A stretch of 64,000 nucleotides of DNA from Erysipelothrix rhusiopathiae (GTDB lineage Bacteria > Bacillota_I > Bacilli_A > Erysipelotrichales > Erysipelotrichaceae). A model generated the notes under the pieces. It did not search any database, was not told the origin of the DNA, and worked only from the letters and a program-made list of their open reading frames with translations. Where the stretch lies: NCBI RefSeq assembly GCF_900637845.1, contig NZ_LR134439.1, forward strand, positions 1,488,001 to 1,552,000, given 5' to 3'. The translations under genes were made by a program, and so were the position numbers. Positions 3,017 through 57,480 of the stretch are shown here, piece after piece. Position 1 is the stretch's first letter. Each line of letters begins with the position of its first letter.

Positions 3017-4009
3017 ATGGGAGTAAATTTAAGCGGAAGAAGCTTCTTAAAGCTTTTGGATTTCACATCAGATGAAATTAGATATTTAGTAGACTTATCA
3101 AAAGAGTTTAAAAATTTAAAACTCACAGGAACACCACACCGTTATCTCGAAGGAAAAAACATCGTATTACTTTTTGAAAAAACTTCAACACGTACACGTT
3201 GTTCATTTGAAGTAGCGGGTATGGACTTGGGTATGGGTGTTACATACTTAGATCCAGGTAGTTCACAAATGGGTAAAAAAGAAAGCATTCCTGATACTGC
3301 ACGTGTACTTGGTCGCATGTATGATGGAATTGAATACCGTGGTTATGCACAAGAAATTGTTCAAGCATTAGCAGATGATGCAGGCGTTCCAGTATGGAAT
3401 GGTTTAACTACAGAATTCCACCCAACACAAATGATCGCAGACTTACTTACAATTGAAGAAAACTTCGGTTATTTAAAAGGTCTAAACTTTGTATTTATGG
3501 GTGATGCTCAAAATAACGTTGCGAACTCACTAATGGTAGCATGTGCAAAAATGGGTCTAAACTTTACAGCTTGTGGACCTAAAGCACAAATGCCACACGC
3601 AGAATTAGTTAAAGAATGCCGTGCAATCGCAAAAGAAAACGGATGTACTGTTACTTTAACTGAAGATGTTAAGAAAGCAACAACAGGTGCTCACGTTATT
3701 TATACTGATATTTGGGTATCAATGGGTGAACCAGATAGTGTATGGGAAGAACGTATTAAACTCTTAAGTCCATACCAAGTAAATAGTGATGTTATGACAA
3801 ATGCAGCAGATGATGCAATCTTCTTACACTGCTTACCTTCATTCCATGATCTTAAGACTACAATTGGACAAGAAATCCATGAAAAATATGGCTTAAAAGA
3901 AATGGAAGTTACAAACGAAGTGTTTGAATCAAAACAATCTAAAGTCTTCAATGAAGCAGAAAACAGAATGCATACAATCAAAGCTGTGATGTATGCAACA
4001 CTTAAGTAG
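3017..4009 (+). CDS. arcB: Ornithine carbamoyltransferase, catabolic
   Basis: Carries out phosphorolysis of citrulline to ornithine and carbamoyl phosphate. Carbamoyl-phosphate-binding STRT is at residues 57-60, HPTQ near 136 and the HCLP motif near 271. The length (330 aa) is typical of OTCase. It sits between arcA and arcC, which supports the catabolic direction rather than arginine biosynthesis; no biosynthetic arg genes are seen in the window. AGGAG at 3001-3005 precedes the start. arcC follows after 9 bases. Confidence 0.95.
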
Positions 4010-6724: not shown

Positions 6725-8017
6725 ATGGACTTTGTAACTGAAATACAAGGTAAAAACTGCTCTCGATATGATAAGCGAAAGCTCTGCAGTTTTGACATGG
6801 AATTTATTGACTTACCAACCTATCCGATCATTCATCAAGCGTCACGCTTTCTCTTTATCAAAAAAGGTGAAGGAACGATTTTGATTGACGGGATAAGTTA
6901 TCCTATTAGAGAAAATTCTCTTATCGCAATTCTTCCTTGGGAAATAACAGAAATTGAGAGCGTGGCCAGGCCCCTCCAATTTGTACGCATAATCTATAAT
7001 ATCGATTACATTTCTCAAGCAATGAAGTGTGGGGCGAATCCAAGTAATGATATGATTGCAGTGACGGGACCTTTAGAAAAAAATCACGTGATTCAATGTA
7101 CTTCAAAAGAAGCTGATGTTATCTTGAAAGTTTTAGATGAGATTCGTGATGAGGTCGGGGTTGAATCAAACCTCGATATTCCTGAAGAGCAAAGTTTATC
7201 AAAACTTTATGTCACCAATAAACTTATTGAACTTGTAATTCATTTCCAACGTTTTGCGAATAAGAAGGAATGTAAGATGAAGTCGAATCAAGAAATTGAA
7301 CTCGATCATCGCTATAAGATTTTCAAATATTTATATTCACATTTAAGTGAAAAATTAACACTTTCTAAACTATCCGGATTTTTCTATATGAGTGAATCTG
7401 CAATTAGTAAGTACATTTATGATGTAACTGGCTTATCCTTCACCGCATTACTTAATGAGATGCGTATTGTGAAGTCGTTAGACTTACTGATTTATACAGG
7501 CATGTCACTGAGTGAAATTGCGGAATTAACGGGGTTTGCGGATGCGTCGCACTTATCAAAAGTATATAATGAACGCATCGGTACAACGCCAAATGAATAT
7601 CGTAAAATTTACCGTAATATTCACCAAGTTATAAATGATAAAGAATTAAGTCTTTCGTATCAGGTGTTAAATTATATGTATAACAACTACAAAGAAAACT
7701 TAAAAATTCAAGAAGTTGCGGATAAGTTCAACATTCCACTTGTAGAACTTAACCTCATTTTGCTTTTCCAAGTAGAAATGAACTTTGAAGACTTCTTGAA
7801 TTATCTTAGGATCAATAAGTCGTGTGAATTACTCTTATCTACCGATTTGGCGATTGTCGATATTGGCATTGCGGTAGGTTATAATAACAGTAAAACATTT
7901 CATCGTAATTTTGTGAAACAAAAGAACATGACCCCAGGAATATTCCGTAAGTCGGTAACGATGCCAACAAGTACGGTTGAAGATCCTGTAGAATTTATCC
8001 GAGCAACGATTTCTTAA
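6725..8017 (+). CDS. AraC-family regulator with two HTH domains
   Basis: A 430-aa transcription regulator. Residues ~15-120 look like the cupin sensor domain of AraC proteins (KKGEGTILIDG region). The first AraC HTH pair spans ~195-295 (LTLSKLSGFFYMSESAISKY, then GMSLSEIAELTGFADASHLS and TPNEYRK). A second, more diverged AraC-type HTH spans ~310-410 (LKIQEVADKFNIP, then DLAIVDIGIAVGYNNSKTFH and TPGIFRK). Usual members have one such unit and ~280-300 aa. GGGGG at 6714-6718 precedes the ATG. It lies downstream of the arc operon in the same orientation but has its own transcription signals. Its target is unknown; the arc operon or the cluster displaced by the IS are guesses. Confidence 0.8.
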   Translation: MDFVTEIQGKNCSRYDKRKLCSFDMEFIDLPTYPIIHQASRFLFIKKGEGTILIDGISYPIRENSLIAILPWEITEIESVARPLQFVRIIYNIDYISQAMKCGANPSNDMIAVTGPLEKNHVIQCTSKEADVILKVLDEIRDEVGVESNLDIPEEQSLSKLYVTNKLIELVIHFQRFANKKECKMKSNQEIELDHRYKIFKYLYSHLSEKLTLSKLSGFFYMSESAISKYIYDVTGLSFTALLNEMRIVKSLDLLIYTGMSLSEIAELTGFADASHLSKVYNERIGTTPNEYRKIYRNIHQVINDKELSLSYQVLNYMYNNYKENLKIQEVADKFNIPLVELNLILLFQVEMNFEDFLNYLRINKSCELLLSTDLAIVDIGIAVGYNNSKTFHRNFVKQKNMTPGIFRKSVTMPTSTVEDPVEFIRATIS

Positions 8018-8043
8018 AAAGACTGTCTTTGAACAGTCTTTTT
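8017..8043 (+). terminator. Intrinsic terminator, left copy of the IS target duplication
   Basis: The hairpin AAAAGACTGT/ACAGTCTTTT (loop CTTTGA) ends the AraC gene. The identical 27 bases recur at 9075-9101 on the other side of the IS, so the whole terminator is the target-site duplication. Confidence 0.88.
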
Positions 8044-8049
8044 CTTTTA

Positions 8050-8988
8050 TCAAATCTCAACCGCACCACTTTTACTTTTATTAAAGTCTATCTCATACGC
8101 CGTTTTGAAGTCAAATATTTTTCGTGGCATTGAGTTAATTTTAAAGCAAATATCATCAAGATATTGTTGTGCTATATCATACATCGATTTTCCTTTCGGT
8201 ATAAACCTTCGCACGATTGCATTTGCACGTTCATTGGTTCCACGTTGAAAAGAACAGTAAGGATCACACTTGTATAGCTTCACACCCAACCGCTTGGCTG
8301 TAATTCCTAATGTTTTAAACTCAAGTCCGTTATCTACTGTTATCGATTTGGTTGTTATATTGTTTTCTTCAATAAATTTCCGAATTAAGTTTGATGTGTA
8401 ATAGTCGTATCGATATTCTGCTTTTATAAGCCAGGTCATTCTTGAACATCGGTCCACAATAGATATAATCGCTGTAGATTCATGTTTCTTACCGATGATA
8501 GAGTCGATTTCGAGATGACCAATCTCGTTACGTTCCTCAATATATTTAGGCCTTAAGCTAATTGGAAGTACAGTTTTTTCTTCTAAGTTCCATCTCAAAT
8601 GATTCATCATTCCACTAATTCTCTTTTTACGTTTTCGTCGCTTATAACACATTCTATTTGGTTTGATTTCAAGTTTACCTTGGTTAATCCAATTATAGAC
8701 TTGCTGCGATGTAACACACGGTTTATACGGATGATATCGTTTATAGTTACTCAAACACACTTCTACCGAATGAACTTTAGGATCATAGTGAGAATGCAGA
8801 TAATCAATTAAGTGAGAATACTTTTCTCGAATATCAATCTTTCGTTTTTTGTAGACATTATTTTTATATCTAGAAATCGTAGAATGAGATATGTTGAGTT
8901 TACGTGCTGCTTTGCGCATAGAGTAGCCGATGCTTAATAGAATATCAATTTGGTCTTTCATTTTTTTATCTAATTGTTTATACTTCAT
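8050..8988 (-). CDS. IS30-family transposase (copy 1)
   Basis: A 312-aa DDE transposase. The N-terminus has an HTH (SMRKAARKLNISHSTISRYK, ~23-42) that would bind the terminal repeats. The catalytic core starts near residue 150 with HLEIDSIIG (first Asp), then SITVDNGLEF (second Asp, ~220) and QRGTNERANAIVRRFIPKG (Glu, ~255), matching the IS30 pattern. The stop codon lies inside the terminal inverted repeat. The start is preceded by AAAAGGAGCTCC. It differs from copy 2 by about 7 of 312 residues; both appear intact. Confidence 0.95.
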   Translation of the reverse strand: MKYKQLDKKMKDQIDILLSIGYSMRKAARKLNISHSTISRYKNNVYKKRKIDIREKYSHLIDYLHSHYDPKVHSVEVCLSNYKRYHPYKPCVTSQQVYNWINQGKLEIKPNRMCYKRRKRKKRISGMMNHLRWNLEEKTVLPISLRPKYIEERNEIGHLEIDSIIGKKHESTAIISIVDRCSRMTWLIKAEYRYDYYTSNLIRKFIEENNITTKSITVDNGLEFKTLGITAKRLGVKLYKCDPYCSFQRGTNERANAIVRRFIPKGKSMYDIAQQYLDDICFKINSMPRKIFDFKTAYEIDFNKSKSGAVEI

Positions 8989-9033
8989 ATGGAGCTCCTT
9001 TTAGTCGGGTGGGCTCCTTTTATTATACAAAAA

Positions 9034-9059
9034 CAACCGCACCTTGTGTGGTGCGGTTG
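9034..9059 (-). terminator. IS-borne terminator upstream of the transposase
   Basis: CAACCGCACC (9034-9043) and GGTGCGGTTG (9050-9059) form a 10-bp stem that reuses the terminal repeat. Read on the minus strand it is followed by TTTTTG, directly upstream of the probable transposase -10 (TATAAT). It would block read-through into the transposase from outside. The same structure is at 50259-50284 in copy 2. Confidence 0.6.
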
Positions 9060-31926: not shown

Positions 31927-32100
31927 ATGATAACCGTAAATGAATTTATGGACGAGGAGTCTGGACAAGGCATGGTTGAATACGGACTTATTCTCGTATT
32001 GGTTTCAGTAGTTACAGTAGTGGTGCTCAAATCTATCGGGAGTGGTTATGTTAAAACAATGTTTGAAACAGTCGCTGATCTAGTCCCTAAAATTAACTAG
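31927..32100 (+). CDS. flp: Flp-type pilin 1
   Basis: A 57-aa type IVb pilin. The prepilin leader MITVNEFMDEESG is followed by QGMVEYGLILVLVSVV. Cleavage after G13 leaves Glu at +5 and the E-Y pair usual in Flp pilins, then a single long hydrophobic helix used in filament packing. It starts 9 bases after the tadV stop. The C-terminus (FETVADLVPKIN) differs from that of pilin 2. Confidence 0.92.
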   Translation: MITVNEFMDEESGQGMVEYGLILVLVSVVTVVVLKSIGSGYVKTMFETVADLVPKIN

Positions 32101-32123: not shown

Positions 32124-32294
32124 ATGAAAAACTTTTTATTCAATGAAGAATCAGGACAAGGTATGGTTGAATACGGTCTTATCTTAGTTCTTGTTTCAGT
32201 AGTAGTTATCGTTGTTATGAAGACTTTAGGTACAAACCTAAAAGGAATCTTCGAAAACGTAGGTAAAGAATTACAAGCAGGTAAAGGCGCTTAG
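32124..32294 (+). CDS. flp: Flp-type pilin 2
   Basis: A 56-aa type IVb pilin with leader MKNFLFNEESG and mature start QGMVEYGLILVLVSVV. Its leader and helix are nearly identical to pilin 1, and the C-terminus is more basic (NVGKELQAGKGA). It has the stronger ribosome binding site (GAGGAGAAA) and is directly followed by two hairpins, so it is probably the major, highly expressed subunit. Confidence 0.93.
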   Translation: MKNFLFNEESGQGMVEYGLILVLVSVVVIVVMKTLGTNLKGIFENVGKELQAGKGA

Positions 32295-44998: not shown

Positions 44999-47107
44999 GT
45001 GAAGAAAGGTTTTACCCAAGCGTTTGGAGATGCGATTGCGAAACACCGCAATGTAATATTAATTATTGCGACGTTACTCTTGATTCCATCGCTTTACGGA
45101 GCAGTATCTACGAAGATAAATTATGATATTCTAACATATCTTCCTAAAGATTCTGAGTCGGTTAAAGGTCAAGAAATATTAGACCGAGAATTTGGTGGTG
45201 CTTCTACAGGAATGTTAGTCATTGAAAACATGACAAACAAAGATGTAGTAAAAACAAAAGAAAAGATTAAAACGGTTAAAGGTGTCGAAGATGTCATTTG
45301 GGTTGATGACCTTGTAGATATATCGGTTCCTTCAACAATGTTACCCGAAGATGTACAGTCGTTACTTTTCCGTGAAAACTCAACATTACTTATTGTTAAG
45401 TTTGATGAGGGAAATGCATCACCACTTACCCATGAAGCAATTGAGGATATTCGATCATTGCTTGATGAACATTCATTCCTAAGTGGAATGTCCGCATTAC
45501 TAAAAGATACAAAAGAACTTGCAGATGCACAAACACCGATTTATGTTGGGCTTGCAGTATTACTTGCAACATTAGTGCTTGCAATGACTTTAGAATCTAC
45601 AGTTATACCTTTTATTATCCTTTTAAGTATTGGATATGCAATCGCCTATAACTTTGGAACAAACGTGATATTTGGTCAAATATCATATATAACCAAATCG
45701 TTAGCAGCTGTATTGCAATTAGGTGTTACACTGGATTACTCGATCTTCTTATTACATCGTTATGAAGAAGAATTACGCAAGAATTCAAATAAAGAACAAG
45801 CAATGGGTTCCGCAATTGCGTCAACGGCATCATCGATTGTAGGGAGTTCATTAACCACGGTTGCAGGATTTTTAGCAATCGGAGCGATGAATCTCACAAT
45901 CGGTAAAGATATTGGATTTGTAATGGCTAAAGGGGTCGTGTTAGGTGTATTATCCGTTCTAACGGTATTACCTTCATTAATTCTTATCTTTGATGGTCCA
46001 ATTCATAAATGGCGTCATCGTACAATTTTACCTGAATTTAACCATCTATCAAAATTAGTTACACGTCATGCGAAAGTATTTGTACTCATTGGTGTTTTAC
46101 TCTTTGTTCCGGCATATTTTGGACAAAGTAACAACGATGTTTACTACAACCTTGATGAGTCTCTACCAAAAGATATGACATCAATGGTCGCTCTTACAAA
46201 ATTAAAAGATGATTATAATATGCAAACAACACACTTTGCTGTTATCCCGAAAACAGTTCCTGATTTCGAAATCACCCGAATGATTAAAGAAATCGAATCG
46301 TTGGATGGCATTGAAAATGTTATTTCATATCAAAAATATGTAGGACCTACTGTACCAGAGTCGTTTTTACCTGAAAAGGTAGTCTCAATTTTCGAAAAAG
46401 GTGATTACAAACGTTTAATCATTAATTCATCTTTTAAATCAGCTACGGATGAAGAAAATCAACAAATAGAGGCGATATCTTCAATTATGAAACAATATGA
46501 TGATGACGCATTACTAACGGGTGAAGGGGTTCTAACAAAAGATTTGATCGATATTGCGGACGAAGATTTTGCTCGTGTTAATGCACTTAGTTTTGCTGCT
46601 GTATTTATTATCATTGCCCTTGTATTCATGTCCGTATCAATTCCTGTTCTCTTAATTGCAGCAATCATGCTGGCAATCTTTATCAACATGAGTGTCCCAT
46701 TCTTTATGGGAACTTCAATTCCATTTATAGCTGGAATCGTAATTGGATCAATTCAATTAGGCGCTACAGTTGACTACGCAATTCTTCTAACAACACGATT
46801 TAAAGAAGAATGTGGTAATGGTTTAGAAAAACATGAAGCGATGGAAATTGCCGTTAAAGAATCTGCGAAATCAATATCAACAAGTGGACTTGCATTCTTC
46901 GGTTCTACCGTTGGTGTCGCAATTATTTCTGAAATGGAATTAGTATCAAGTCTTAGCGGCATGATTGCTCGTGGAGCAATCATTTCTACACTCGTTATTT
47001 TATTCATTCTTCCGGGAATCTTACTTGGATGTGAAGGAATTATAAGTAAAACAACACGGGGTTGGAGAAAAAGTAATAAAGGAGATGTTATAACGAATGA
47101 AGACTAA
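44999..47107 (+). CDS. MMPL/RND-family transporter
   Basis: 702 aa, two MMPL repeats of one helix, a large outer loop and five helices. The outer loops run ~40-180 and ~375-515. Conserved membrane aspartates lie in LQLGVTLDYSIFLLHRYEEE (~248) and IQLGATVDYAILLTTRFKEE (~590), the proton-relay positions. MMPL proteins export lipids or other hydrophobic molecules. The start is GTG 44999, 4 bases after tetR, and the next gene overlaps by 11 bases. Confidence 0.88.
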   Translation: MKKGFTQAFGDAIAKHRNVILIIATLLLIPSLYGAVSTKINYDILTYLPKDSESVKGQEILDREFGGASTGMLVIENMTNKDVVKTKEKIKTVKGVEDVIWVDDLVDISVPSTMLPEDVQSLLFRENSTLLIVKFDEGNASPLTHEAIEDIRSLLDEHSFLSGMSALLKDTKELADAQTPIYVGLAVLLATLVLAMTLESTVIPFIILLSIGYAIAYNFGTNVIFGQISYITKSLAAVLQLGVTLDYSIFLLHRYEEELRKNSNKEQAMGSAIASTASSIVGSSLTTVAGFLAIGAMNLTIGKDIGFVMAKGVVLGVLSVLTVLPSLILIFDGPIHKWRHRTILPEFNHLSKLVTRHAKVFVLIGVLLFVPAYFGQSNNDVYYNLDESLPKDMTSMVALTKLKDDYNMQTTHFAVIPKTVPDFEITRMIKEIESLDGIENVISYQKYVGPTVPESFLPEKVVSIFEKGDYKRLIINSSFKSATDEENQQIEAISSIMKQYDDDALLTGEGVLTKDLIDIADEDFARVNALSFAAVFIIIALVFMSVSIPVLLIAAIMLAIFINMSVPFFMGTSIPFIAGIVIGSIQLGATVDYAILLTTRFKEECGNGLEKHEAMEIAVKESAKSISTSGLAFFGSTVGVAIISEMELVSSLSGMIARGAIISTLVILFILPGILLGCEGIISKTTRGWRKSNKGDVITNED

Positions 47108-49241
47108 AAATTCAATACGTGCACTCAGTGGTGCGATTGCAATCAGCATGGTTGCCGTTGTACCTGTAAGTGCAAATGAACCAATAAAAAAAGATGAAAC
47201 AGTATTTGTTAACTTAGATAGCGATGGACGTGTGATTCATAAAGTATCAAGTGTTCATCTACATTCTAATAAAGAATTAAAGACTGTTTCCGACAAATCA
47301 AATTTAAAGAATATTGTGAATGTTAAAACAGATGATCAACCCGGTATAGCTGGTAATACAGTAATATGGAACACAGATCAAAAAGATGTTTATTATCAAG
47401 GAGATATTGAACAATCGTTACCCATTGAAACTTCCATACATTATACCTTAGATGGTAAAACGGTTCGTCCAGAAGATATTGTTGGACAAAGTGGTCGATT
47501 AAAAATTTCAATCGACATTAAAAATAACGATCCACGCACTATTAAATTAAAAAATGGTGGAACCAAAAAAGGTTATGCACCTTATATGGTTGCAACTGTC
47601 ATGAACTTATCCTCAGACATCTTTAAAGATGTAACTGTGAATACAGGTAAGTTAATTCAAGATGGAAACAACCAAATTGCTACCTTTGCGGTTCTTCCTG
47701 GAATGAAAGAAAATCTTGGTATTACAAAAGAACTCTTTGGTCTAAATGACCATATCGAAGTTCAAGCAGATGTTGTGGATTTTGAAATGAGTCCAATTGT
47801 ATTTACCGCCACTTCAAACATTCCAAATTTAGAAGCATTAGAAGATTTTGATCGTGTTGAAGATGTTGCAAGAAGTATCGAGACTTTAAAAGATGCTGCC
47901 AACCAACTTGCAAACGGAACACAACAATTATCAGATGGTTCAAATCAATTAAATAGTGGTATTACTGACTATGTTAGTGCAGTTGGTAAAGTAAACGATG
48001 GATCGCATGAACTTTCTTCAGGTTCAGGTGTATTCTTCGATGGTATTTATCGAAGTTCAGTAGGTGCACAATCCCTTGCTGACAATACATCTTTATTTAC
48101 AGAGAAAGCAGCACAATTAGGTAATGGTTATTTAGCCTTAAGTGAAGGTGTCATGCAATATGCATCAAAGGCAACTCAACTAAGCGATGGTTTTATTAAA
48201 GCTTCTGAAGCATTGAAACCTGTTCGAGGTTCTGTTACTAAGCTTAAGACTGGAATGACTCAAATTGATTCAGGCACACAAAAGTTGATGACAGGAAGTC
48301 ATCAAGTTGTAGCAGGTGTAACTGGAGTTCAAGGTGCAAACACGATGGGATTAAATCAAATTAATCAAACAACGCAAGCCATTGCATCACTTAAAGAACA
48401 AATTACGGTACTTGAAAAAGCCATTGCATTGATTCCTGAAGACAAAGATCGTACAGAAATTCAACAAGAATATGAAACACTTGTTAAAACGGTTAATGCA
48501 CTCGAACAATCCAACGAAGCAGTAAATACAATCTATGGACACGTTGATACACAACTACCTACGCTTGTTGAAGGTAGTGAAGCTGTGAAACAAGGACTTG
48601 AAACTGTGAATACAAATCAAAAATCAGTCTTAACAGGACTTGGTCAACTAGATCATGGATTGGAACAATTTGAAACTGTGTCTGCTCAATTGAATGAGAA
48701 TGCACAAAAACTAAATGCTGGAGCCTTGGTACTTGATACTAAATCTAAAGAAGCATCACGTGGAAGTCAACTTCTACTTGATGGTTCGTCCAAACTTTCT
48801 TCGGGCGCTCTAGAACTTGCAACAGGGATTCAAAAACTAAATGATGGATCCAGTGTCGTTAAAGACGGACTTGATGCGCTTGCACAAGGAACAAATCAAG
48901 TTTATCATGCTGGTTCACAACTCGAAGCAGGAGCATCCAAACTTGCAGAAGGTTCTTCAGAGCTTAATGTCAAAGTTACCGAAGGGATGGCTGAAGCGAA
49001 ATCACACGATGAGATCAGTATGGATGATTTAACTCAAATTCTTGATGTTAAAGATGGTCTGTTAGAGATCGCTGAAACAAATACAACATTCAGTGGACTT
49101 GGTTCTGACATGGAAGGTAGTTCCAAAATGATTATGAGAACTGAAGCAATTAAAAAAGAAAAAGAAACAAAGGTTATTGAAGAAACTGTTCAAGAACACC
49201 AAGGATTCTTTGCTTGGATTAAAGAAAAGTTTTCAAAGTAA
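47097..49241 (+). CDS. Secreted heptad-repeat (X-x-x-L-x-x-G) protein partnered with MMPL
   Basis: 714 aa. A signal peptide (~1-26, cut likely at VSA/NEPI) precedes a beta-type domain (~30-240). Residues ~260-650 are made of heptads such as LANGTQQLSDGSNQLNSG and LSSGALELATGIQKLNDG, the pattern of YhgE/Pip-like and MMPL-linked proteins, forming long coiled or tubular structures. The C-terminus is EKFSK with no membrane helix. It overlaps the MMPL gene by 11 bases, so a transport complex with the MMPL protein is likely: the extended part could act as an outer channel or periplasmic adapter. Confidence 0.78.
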   Translation: MKTKNSIRALSGAIAISMVAVVPVSANEPIKKDETVFVNLDSDGRVIHKVSSVHLHSNKELKTVSDKSNLKNIVNVKTDDQPGIAGNTVIWNTDQKDVYYQGDIEQSLPIETSIHYTLDGKTVRPEDIVGQSGRLKISIDIKNNDPRTIKLKNGGTKKGYAPYMVATVMNLSSDIFKDVTVNTGKLIQDGNNQIATFAVLPGMKENLGITKELFGLNDHIEVQADVVDFEMSPIVFTATSNIPNLEALEDFDRVEDVARSIETLKDAANQLANGTQQLSDGSNQLNSGITDYVSAVGKVNDGSHELSSGSGVFFDGIYRSSVGAQSLADNTSLFTEKAAQLGNGYLALSEGVMQYASKATQLSDGFIKASEALKPVRGSVTKLKTGMTQIDSGTQKLMTGSHQVVAGVTGVQGANTMGLNQINQTTQAIASLKEQITVLEKAIALIPEDKDRTEIQQEYETLVKTVNALEQSNEAVNTIYGHVDTQLPTLVEGSEAVKQGLETVNTNQKSVLTGLGQLDHGLEQFETVSAQLNENAQKLNAGALVLDTKSKEASRGSQLLLDGSSKLSSGALELATGIQKLNDGSSVVKDGLDALAQGTNQVYHAGSQLEAGASKLAEGSSELNVKVTEGMAEAKSHDEISMDDLTQILDVKDGLLEIAETNTTFSGLGSDMEGSSKMIMRTEAIKKEKETKVIEETVQEHQGFFAWIKEKFSK

Positions 49242-49267
49242 AAAAAAACGACTTCGGTCGTTTTTTT
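49242..49267. repeat. Left copy of the IS target duplication (a terminator)
   Basis: A-run, CGACTTCGGTCG hairpin and T-run, 26 bases, identical to 50300-50325. It is the bidirectional terminator of the heptad-protein gene and brnQ. Confidence 0.9.
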
Positions 49268-49273
49268 CTTTTA

Positions 49274-50212
49274 TCAAATCTCAACCGCACCACTTTTACT
49301 TTTATTAAAGTCTATCTCATAGGCCGTTTTGAAGTCAAATATTTTTCGCGGCATTGAGTTAATTTTGAAGCAAATATCATCAAGATATTGTTGCGCTATA
49401 TCATACATTGATTTTCCTTTTGGTATAAACCTTCTCACGATTGCATTGGCTCGTTCATTGGTTCCACGTTGAAAAGAACAGTACGGATCACACTTATATA
49501 GTTTCACACCCAACCGCTTGGCTGTAATTCCTAGTGTTTTAAATTCAAGTCCATTATCTACTGTTATCGATTTTGTTGTTATATTGTTTTCTTCAATAAA
49601 TTTCCGAATTAAGTTTGATGTGTAATAGTCATATCTATATTCTGCTTTAATAAGCCAGATCATTCTTGAGCAGCGGTCCACAATAGATATAATCGCTGCA
49701 GTTTCATGTTTCTTACCGATGATGGAGTCAATTTCGAGATGACCAATCTCGTTTCGTTCCTCAATGTATTTAGGTCTAAGGCTAATTGGAAGTACCGTTT
49801 TCTCTTCCAAGTTCCATTTCAAGTGATTCATCATTCCACTAATTCTCTTTTTACGTTTTCGACGTTTATAGCACATTCTATTTGGCTTTATTTCAAGCTT
49901 ACCTTGGTTAATCCAGTTATAGACTTGCTGCGATGTAACGCACGGTTTATATGGATGATATCGTTTATAGTTACTCAAGCATACTTCTACCGAATGAACT
50001 TTAGGATCATAGTGAGAATGAAGATATTCGATTAAGTGGGAATATTTGTCTCGAATATCAATCGTTCGTTTCTTATAGACATTATTTTTATATCTAGAAA
50101 TCGTAGAATGAGATATATTGAGTTTACGTGCTGCCTTGCGCATAGAATAGCCGATGCTTAATAGAATATCAATTTGGTCTTTCATTTTTTTATCTAATTG
50201 TTTATACTTCAT
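49274..50212 (-). CDS. IS30-family transposase (copy 2)
   Basis: 312 aa, intact, with the same HTH and DDE residues as copy 1. Differences seen: K/T, E/D and D/E near 53-66, R/K near 130, S/T and T/A near 172, and T/I near 187. None affects the catalytic residues, so both copies could be active. The stop codon lies in the terminal repeat. Confidence 0.95.
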   Translation of the reverse strand: MKYKQLDKKMKDQIDILLSIGYSMRKAARKLNISHSTISRYKNNVYKKRTIDIRDKYSHLIEYLHSHYDPKVHSVEVCLSNYKRYHPYKPCVTSQQVYNWINQGKLEIKPNRMCYKRRKRKKRISGMMNHLKWNLEEKTVLPISLRPKYIEERNEIGHLEIDSIIGKKHETAAIISIVDRCSRMIWLIKAEYRYDYYTSNLIRKFIEENNITTKSITVDNGLEFKTLGITAKRLGVKLYKCDPYCSFQRGTNERANAIVRRFIPKGKSMYDIAQQYLDDICFKINSMPRKIFDFKTAYEIDFNKSKSGAVEI

Positions 50213-50258
50213 ATGGGAGCTCCTTTTAGTCGGGTGGGCTCCTTTTATTATACAAAAA

Positions 50259-50284
50259 CAACCGCACCTTGGGTGGTGCGGTTG
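50259..50284 (-). terminator. IS-borne terminator upstream of transposase copy 2
   Basis: CAACCGCACC (50259-50268) and GGTGCGGTTG (50275-50284), T-run on the minus strand. The stem matches copy 1, while the loop differs by one base (TTGGGT against TTGTGT). Confidence 0.6.
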
Positions 50285-50299
50285 AGATTTGAATTTAGG

Positions 50300-50325
50300 A
50301 AAAAAACGACTTCGGTCGTTTTTTT
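50300..50325. repeat. Right copy of the IS target duplication (terminator of brnQ)
   Basis: Identical to 49242-49267. On the minus strand it directly follows brnQ, whose stop codon abuts the T-run. Confidence 0.9.
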
Positions 50326-51628
50326 AATCTTCAATCAGTGTAAGGTTTGCATAGATTGTTGTGATAATGGCAATGATGATTCCAGGTATGACCCAAGAAA
50401 GTTGAAGGTTATGTAATGGAAGCGTTGAGATGAGTTTAAAGCATGTACTGTGAGCATGATTAATACTCGATAGGATACTAATACATCCCACAACAATCGT
50501 CGTTATTTTAAATGTTATATCGGGTATGTCGCCTATAAGGGTTAAGAGAATTAAAGTAATTGCGATCGGATAGATTGCACTCAGTATCGGTGAACTGATC
50601 GCTAAAATCTGATTCAAACCAAAATTACCGATGATTAGACTAATTATTGAGAGTAAGATAACAAATTTTTCGTAACTTAGGATATGTAGAAGTTCTGAAA
50701 AATATTTACTGCATGAAGTAATTAATCCGACACAAGTTGTAAGGCATGCTAAGGTAAAGATCAATCCAAGTACAATTGGACCATAAGACCCATAGGCCGC
50801 ATATGAAACAGCAATTAAGACCTCTACACCATTGGTAGCATTTGCTAAATTTGGTGCAATATGAGAGCCTAGAAGTGCCAAAAGAATATAAACAAGAAAT
50901 AATAAGATACCTGCAATCGCACCAACTTTATATGTTGTATTACGAATCACCTTTTTATCGGCAATTCCGATGTCTTGTATAATCATTGAAAGTACAAGTC
51001 CAACTGTAAGGGATCCGATCGCATCCATCGTCATATAACCATTAATAAATGCGGCAGTTGCCGGATGGAGACGATATGGATCTTTGGGAGGTAAAATTAC
51101 ATGTGCCTGTTTAGAAAAAATCAGGACTGAAGTAATAATCAAAAGACTGAGAAGAATCGGTGTTAATACTTTACCCATCCGATCCACTAACTTATTGGGT
51201 TTCATGGATAACCATGCGGCAATACCAAAAAACACAAAGGTATAAATAAGCATTCCAACATTCAGGTTTGATTCAGATAATATCGGCTTAATTGCAATTT
51301 CAAAGGGCATTGTACCTGCTCGTGGAATCGCTAATCCAGGTCCTATTGAGATGTATATAATAACTGTGAACGCTGTAGCGAAGTAAGGATGAACTTTTGA
51401 GCCAATTGGATAGAACCCTTCAGCTTTTGCGACGGCACTAATGCCTAAAAACGTTAAAAACACTGCAGACATTGAGAAGAAGAAGATTGATATTGGAAGG
51501 TTATATCCCGATAGATAACCAATCATGGAAGGAAAAATCAGATTTCCAGCACCAAAAAACATAGAGAAAACAGTGATACCAAGAGAAAGCACCTCATGGC
51601 GTGATAATTTATTCATAAAAGACCTCAA
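50324..51628 (-). CDS. brnQ: Branched-chain amino acid carrier protein
   Basis: A 434-aa membrane symporter with 12 predicted helices, importing leucine, isoleucine and valine with sodium or protons. The start ITVFSMFFGAGNLIFPSMIG is the BrnQ/LIVCS signature with the ion-binding first helix, and FITSCSKYFSEL lies near 310. It ends at the IS-duplicated terminator. The promoter is in the 51-base gap before the next gene upstream or beyond it. Confidence 0.93.
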   Translation of the reverse strand: MRSFMNKLSRHEVLSLGITVFSMFFGAGNLIFPSMIGYLSGYNLPISIFFFSMSAVFLTFLGISAVAKAEGFYPIGSKVHPYFATAFTVIIYISIGPGLAIPRAGTMPFEIAIKPILSESNLNVGMLIYTFVFFGIAAWLSMKPNKLVDRMGKVLTPILLSLLIITSVLIFSKQAHVILPPKDPYRLHPATAAFINGYMTMDAIGSLTVGLVLSMIIQDIGIADKKVIRNTTYKVGAIAGILLFLVYILLALLGSHIAPNLANATNGVEVLIAVSYAAYGSYGPIVLGLIFTLACLTTCVGLITSCSKYFSELLHILSYEKFVILLSIISLIIGNFGLNQILAISSPILSAIYPIAITLILLTLIGDIPDITFKITTIVVGCISILSSINHAHSTCFKLISTLPLHNLQLSWVIPGIIIAIITTIYANLTLIED

Positions 51629-57447: not shown

Positions 57448-57480
57448 AAAAAAACGTTCACTGTTATCAGTGAACGTTTT
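57448..57480. terminator. Bidirectional terminator
   Basis: AAAACGTTCACTG and CAGTGAACGTTTT form a 13-bp stem with a TTAT loop, between convergent genes. Confidence 0.93.

Follow-up and report, generated by a model that had tools for sequence, protein, structure and literature searches.

An IS30-family insertion sequence in Erysipelothrix rhusiopathiae is flanked by duplicated copies of the hairpins at its insertion sites

The 64-kb stretch of the complete 1.77-Mb genome of Erysipelothrix rhusiopathiae analysed here (hereafter the window, numbered from its first nucleotide) contains two copies of an insertion sequence (IS) of the IS30 family, whose closest named relatives are found in Erysipelothrix species. 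Each copy lies between two direct repeats of a complete hairpin. Extending the analysis to related elements, we find that all 71 target site duplications (TSDs) recovered are hairpins; they differ in sequence, range in length from 11 to 43 bp, and in each the hairpin centre falls no more than 1 nt from the TSD centre. We consider it highly probable that this is an IS1630-like element of the IS30 family that chooses inverted repeats as targets, joins to them at their 5' feet and duplicates the whole hairpin. The label IS1630-like refers to the duplication behaviour (long, variable-length duplications of unrelated inverted repeats, seen in 35/35 cases within the genus and 71/71 overall) and not to a direct comparison of the transposases with that of IS1630. 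The length of the TSD is set by the target hairpin rather than by the enzyme, an indication that a folded DNA shape is recognized.

Hairpin duplications at occupied and empty sites

At the copy designated copy 2, the 26-bp sequence AAAAAAACGACTTCGGTCGTTTTTTT, a perfect 11+4+11 inverted repeat, is found in identical copies at positions 49242-49267 and 50300-50325. A preliminary description of this DNA had reported a 26-bp hairpin duplication here; the repeats are indeed identical, but the length requires correction by one base. At three other copies (L080, L123 and L128), the target base at the corresponding position is A or C, yet on the element side CTTTTATC is still preceded by T. This shows the T at 49267 to be element sequence, so that the TSD is 25 bp long and the T at 50325 represents microhomology with the first T of the element. 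This register, taken from sister copies, also brings the two 27-bp terminal repeats into line. Copy 1 is flanked by AAAAGACTGTCTTTGAACAGTCTTTT (8017-8042 and 9075-9100), a hairpin whose sequence has no relation to that at copy 2, as the same description had stated.

Both insertion sites have unoccupied counterparts in which the same flanking genes enclose a single, uninterrupted hairpin (for copy 2, L130 in genome G001 and L132 in G011; for copy 1, L136 in G001 and L138 in G011). These empty sites decide whether the hairpins could instead be terminal modules of the element itself. Such modules would accord with the finding that nearly every copy is flanked by hairpins, but the hairpin is a different one at each insertion, and because sister species hold the same hairpin singly at the empty sites, the hairpins are host sequence and not element ends. 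The idea is thus refuted. As a separate observation, the copy 1 hairpin has the loop CTTTGA in the window, and its counterpart at the empty site L136 of G001 has CCAAAG, nearly inverted, as if the loop had been flipped.

The 71 TSDs comprise three sets. The Erysipelothrix set (35 TSDs) was obtained by a genus-wide search for copies of the element followed by pairing of left and right flanks, with some TSDs matched across contig ends or between rearranged copies. A second set (18 TSDs) surrounds relatives at 54-70% amino-acid identity in other Bacilli, and the third (18 TSDs) surrounds relatives at 31-38% identity in Mycoplasma-type genomes, that is, genomes using genetic code 4 (TGA = tryptophan). 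For the 35 Erysipelothrix TSDs, the hairpin centre minus the TSD centre has a mean of 0.07 nt, a standard deviation of 0.52 nt and a maximum of 1.0 nt. TSDs in the other Bacilli are likewise centred on a hairpin (18/18), and the Mycoplasma-type TSDs, which measure 11-41 bp, are all centred within 1 nt (18/18), the ends of most coinciding exactly with the inverted repeat's base. Comparative genomics had been proposed as a check for insertions lying mainly outside inverted repeats, and this survey places 71 of 71 TSDs on hairpins. Two events alone, from which structure-led target choice had originally been argued, are thin evidence; with 71 of 71 it is well supported.

Chance repeats were considered and rejected on the centred-hairpin scores: of randomly placed window segments similar in length to TSDs, 3% score as high as the lowest-scoring TSD, against all 53 TSDs in that comparison. 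Of the 143 distinct element ends, 125 adjoin a hairpin whose score exceeds the 95% level of random positions.

A TSD of fixed length was also rejected, since lengths vary with the hairpin. Erysipelothrix TSDs span 19-43 bp, as does the combined set with the other Bacilli, and their length tracks that of the GC-containing core hairpin (r=0.81, slope 0.88), with the cut falling about 4 nt beyond the GC core on both sides. TSD length minus core length has a standard deviation of 3.4 in these 35 cases, compared to 7.7 after permutation, the lowest of 20,000 permutations giving 4.6. One terminator has been struck independently and in opposite orientations in two species (L119/L116 in G002, L113/L097 in G003).

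At a greater distance, 12 elements from three further genomes (29-31% identity) showed no long duplication, only repeats of 7-12 nt, a length expected by chance. Distant Lactobacillales-type IS30 elements at this level of identity (L211, L213, L216, L218, L219 and L221) often lie beside a terminator-like hairpin and perhaps have a related preference for gene ends.

Contributions of DNA shape, sequence and transcription

Sequence makes a clear contribution to target choice in Erysipelothrix: the first three bases of the TSD are A and the last three are T in at least 31 of the 35 cases. The earlier claim that structure and not sequence guides target choice is well supported in its first half, with 71/71 centred hairpins, and needs qualification in its second, as the A/T arms are shared. 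Could such arms suffice, the element recognizing A- and T-tracts that are inverted relative to each other and flexibly spaced on linear DNA, so that the hairpin is incidental to the terminator arms? We examined about 2,450 segments of 19-43 nt from the window, outside the two element copies, that begin with AAA and end with TTT. Only 5.6% of these segments, equal in length to the targets, form good hairpins (score of 15 or above), compared with 94% of the targets. No helical phasing with a 10.5-bp period was found in the 53 TSDs of 19-43 bp (Rayleigh p ~0.11), and several Mycoplasma-type TSDs lack such tracts altogether (for example CAGCTCAGCTG and GAGATTGTGATCTC). We therefore regard purely sequence-led targeting as improbable.

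A second alternative is that what attracts the transposition complex is a paused RNA polymerase at the terminator, or the RNA hairpin or transcription bubble formed there. All 33 Erysipelothrix sites with readable context are consistent with such transcription-coupled targeting, in that one or more genes read into the hairpin (19 convergent, 14 co-directional) and none lies between divergent genes. The cuts, however, are symmetric and centred within 1 nt, and at one-way sites the orientation of the element is free of the direction of transcription (9 versus 5). Furthermore, in one Mycoplasma-type genome AT-only palindromes and an (AT)n tract have been used as targets (L200, L202), which hints at DNA shape, although this argument is weakened by an old decayed element beside L202. 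These observations weigh little in either direction. Overall, we consider transcription-coupled targeting unlikely, while giving it appreciable weight. The (AT)n site itself was considered as clean proof of DNA shape and rejected on account of the adjoining decayed element. In the surrounding sequence (L232, around 2396-2410 and 3570-3605), the element lies inside the (AT)n tract, a kind of sequence that classically forms cruciforms and lacks the shape of a terminator, and the decayed older element is situated upstream of it.

The 33 gene-end sites could also reflect survivorship, with random insertion followed by the persistence of harmless gene-end insertions only. Gene ends are plausibly where insertion does least harm, but neutral intergenic DNA without hairpins is unused, and selection can neither centre TSDs to half a nucleotide nor match their length to the hairpin. 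Survivorship as the sole explanation is strongly disfavoured and, in our judgement, extremely improbable.

Several points weigh against recognition of a folded target by the element. As all 33 sites are real gene ends, DNA shape is not yet separable from terminator function, and the two are confounded because most of the strong palindromes that these genomes contain are terminators. Only surviving insertions are visible, so selection against other sites contributes to the pattern, even though it is unable to account for the centring. Among the 143 element ends, 18 fall below the 95% threshold; some of these are rearranged or decayed (L084, L090, L006, L093) or have hairpins too long for the 46-nt test to register (L078, L013), and a few (L037, L031, L041) are without explanation. 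Finally, in the combined 53 TSDs, the correlation of length with an automatic measure of the core is weaker (r=0.58), because the hairpin core is poorly defined in AT-rich stems.

Proposed mechanism and related systems

We propose that the targets selected by the transposition complex would be inverted repeats, for the most part intrinsic terminators that carry A/T arms. The substrate is most likely an extruded DNA hairpin or cruciform, as judged from the length scaling, the centring and the lack of phasing; in such a structure the two feet would be close together whatever the length of the stem. On each strand, one of the two 3' ends of the element would be joined to the hairpin's 5' foot, a few nucleotides beyond the GC stem. 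Each flank would be left with one hairpin, both of which would be completed by gap repair. Both neighbouring genes would then keep a terminator, with the element insulated between the two. The scaling of the duplication with the hairpin over 11-43 bp would follow from the feet of an extruded palindrome adjoining whatever the arm length; TSDs that track the hairpin over this range exclude a cut of fixed spacing on linear DNA as their source. We also lean towards a broader hypothesis, in which a clade of IS30-type DDE transposases takes an extruded DNA cruciform as target, performs strand transfer at its feet, much as a junction resolvase would act, and lets the target set the TSD length. This would constitute a sequence-tolerant, terminator-addressed mode extending from Mycoplasma-type Bacilli to Erysipelothrix.

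For DDE transposases, the norm is a duplication of fixed length set by the enzyme, usually a few base pairs. The behaviour described here is already known: it is described in the title of the 1999 paper by Calcutt, Lavrrar and Wise on IS1630 of Mycoplasma fermentans, the abstract of which is said to link the duplications to rho-independent terminators. What is new in the present study is the breadth, the empty sites and the rule for where the cuts fall. For IS1630, terminal repeats of 27 bp and duplications of 16, 23, 25 and 26 bp are listed in a later genome paper (PMC3317919). IS1630 comes from a different genus and has a divergent transposase; relative to its record, the present sample is larger and adds length scaling, cut position and empty sites. 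The behaviour has been on record since 1999, and we found no confirmed mechanism for it in the accessible literature.

ISMfau-2 of Mycoplasma faucium encodes an IS30-family transposase and has unique direct repeats of 19-29 bp at 9 of its 10 copies (PMC11062135). These locus-specific repeats resemble the present TSDs; the passages on ISMfau-2 in that source do not call them hairpins or terminators (PMC11062135). In E. rhusiopathiae itself, the IS30-like elements ISErh2 and ISErh4 account for strain-specific insertions of 1,060-1,073 bp, which, in a comparison by length alone, equal the 1,033-bp element plus 27-40 bp (PMC12017102). They are probably the present element or a close relative; the passage describing them does not deal with their targets. 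Since the lengths of these strain-specific insertions fit an element plus its TSD, recent mobility is suggested.

Targeting of hairpins is also known from group IIC introns, ribozyme retroelements whose targets are often terminators and which insert beside the hairpin, are not known to duplicate it and use a mechanism unrelated to that of the present element. These introns recognize a DNA stem-loop as target (PMC10190682). IS1272 of Staphylococcus aureus targets inverted repeats of unrelated sequence, and in the cruciform model that Wan and colleagues proposed for it in 2017, 'pathway b' (5'-foot joining) duplicates the whole stem-loop (PMC5678879). The outcome of that pathway is the one seen here, whereas IS1272 itself replaces the stem-loop and leaves no TSD (PMC5678879). 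Replacement of this type does not describe our element, for which the hairpin is present twice at occupied sites and once at empty sites. IS30 of Escherichia coli, of the same transposase family, transposes via a circular intermediate in which its ends are joined and favours hot spots that are nearly palindromic. Its points of attack on the two strands lie 2 bp apart, giving 2-bp duplications (PMC9333248), compared to 19-43 bp in Erysipelothrix and the other Bacilli.

If the stem determines the duplication, a change to the stem predicts a change in the TSD, and the hairpin-tracking TSDs offer a clean experimental handle. To judge from sequence, the element may be a selfish one with a near-harmless niche, in which the duplicated terminator lets the neighbours keep their ends and insulates the element.

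Features of the element and other observations

The coordinates of the features are collected in Table 1. The transposase was assigned to its family by NCBIfam model transpos_IS30 (NF033563; 219.9 bits against a cut-off of 80) and contains the Pfam domains HTH_38 and rve, with a DD(33)E catalytic triad in which 33 residues separate the last two members. A length of 1,033 bp, one open reading frame (ORF) of 312 amino acids and 27-bp terminal repeats agree with the family range (~1.0-1.25 kb, one gene, terminal repeats of 20-30 bp). A search by sequence of the Protein Data Bank found no relative of the transposase. The subterminal hairpin with its T5 run is probably an internal terminator shielding the transposase gene from outside transcription, and together with the two outer duplicated terminators it would leave the element well insulated. 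Copy 2 does lie between convergent genes, as initially described, and a complete hairpin follows each stop codon, so that each gene appears to have kept its own terminator.

Table 1. Features of the two element copies, their insertion sites and the adjoining genes in the window.
Feature	Position	Strand	Remarks
IS30-family insertion sequence, copy 2	49267..50299	-	1,033 bp; boundaries via register with sister copies
Left TSD copy, 25 bp	49242..49266		putative bidirectional terminator hairpin A7-CGAC-TTCG-GTCG-T6; DNA fold -9.3 kcal/mol, z -3.6
Right TSD copy, 25 bp	50300..50324		T at 50325 is the next target base
Left terminal inverted repeat	49267..49293	+	27 bp, TCTTTTATCAAATCTCAACCGCACCAC
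Right terminal inverted repeat	50273..50299	-	27 bp, CCTAAATTCAAATCTCAACCGCACCAC
Transposase, 312 amino acids	49274..50212	-	HTH_38 + rve; catalytic D162-D219-(33)-E253
Subterminal hairpin CAACCGCACC/GGTGCGGTTG + T5, immediately upstream of TATAAT	50254..50284	-	fold computed; putative function
Upstream gene, X-X-X-Leu-X-X-Gly heptad-repeat protein	47097..49241	+	stop abuts left hairpin; reads into it
Convergent gene, branched-chain amino acid carrier	50324..51628	-	stop codon 50324-50326 overlaps site edge; reads into right hairpin
Copy 1 of the element	8043..9074	-	1,032 bp, 94% identical to copy 2
Copy 1, left 26-bp duplication	8017..8042		hairpin GACTGT-CTTTGA-ACAGTC
Copy 1, right 26-bp duplication	9075..9100		matches left duplication
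Unoccupied terminator hairpin (natural empty site)	57448..57480		orthologue in sister species G001 carries the element (L128); both flanks 96-97% identical

The duplicated hairpins serve as site-specific bar-codes that pair separated halves of the element after rearrangements and across contig breaks. Contigs of the draft genomes G002 and G003 (L095-L122) are interrupted within the element, and matching of the duplicated hairpins allows their ends to be joined: a mate was found for 9 of the 10 left ends in G003 and for all 4 in G002. In G005, hairpins at several copies mismatch within the copy and match between copies (L081/L086, L086/L082, L085/L087, L087/L089, L089/L081 and L084/L085), which is the footprint of recombination between element copies. 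A remnant of about 55 bp in G000 (L006, C1:331629-331683) consists of two fused element ends with a single terminator-like hairpin, on the right side only.

Most G005 copies (about ten, for example L079, L080, L083 and L088), as well as L093 in G011, carry a nested two-ORF element of IS3 type, about 1.4 kb long, near the right end and in either orientation (L079 versus L088). Several of these IS30/IS3-type composites keep intact hairpin duplications, and the pair may therefore move together. Elsewhere in the window, two nearby copies of a sequence encoding E-S-G-Q-G-M-V-E-Y-G-L-I-L-V-L-V (31954-32012 and 32145-32203) resemble two Flp-type pilin genes arranged in tandem.
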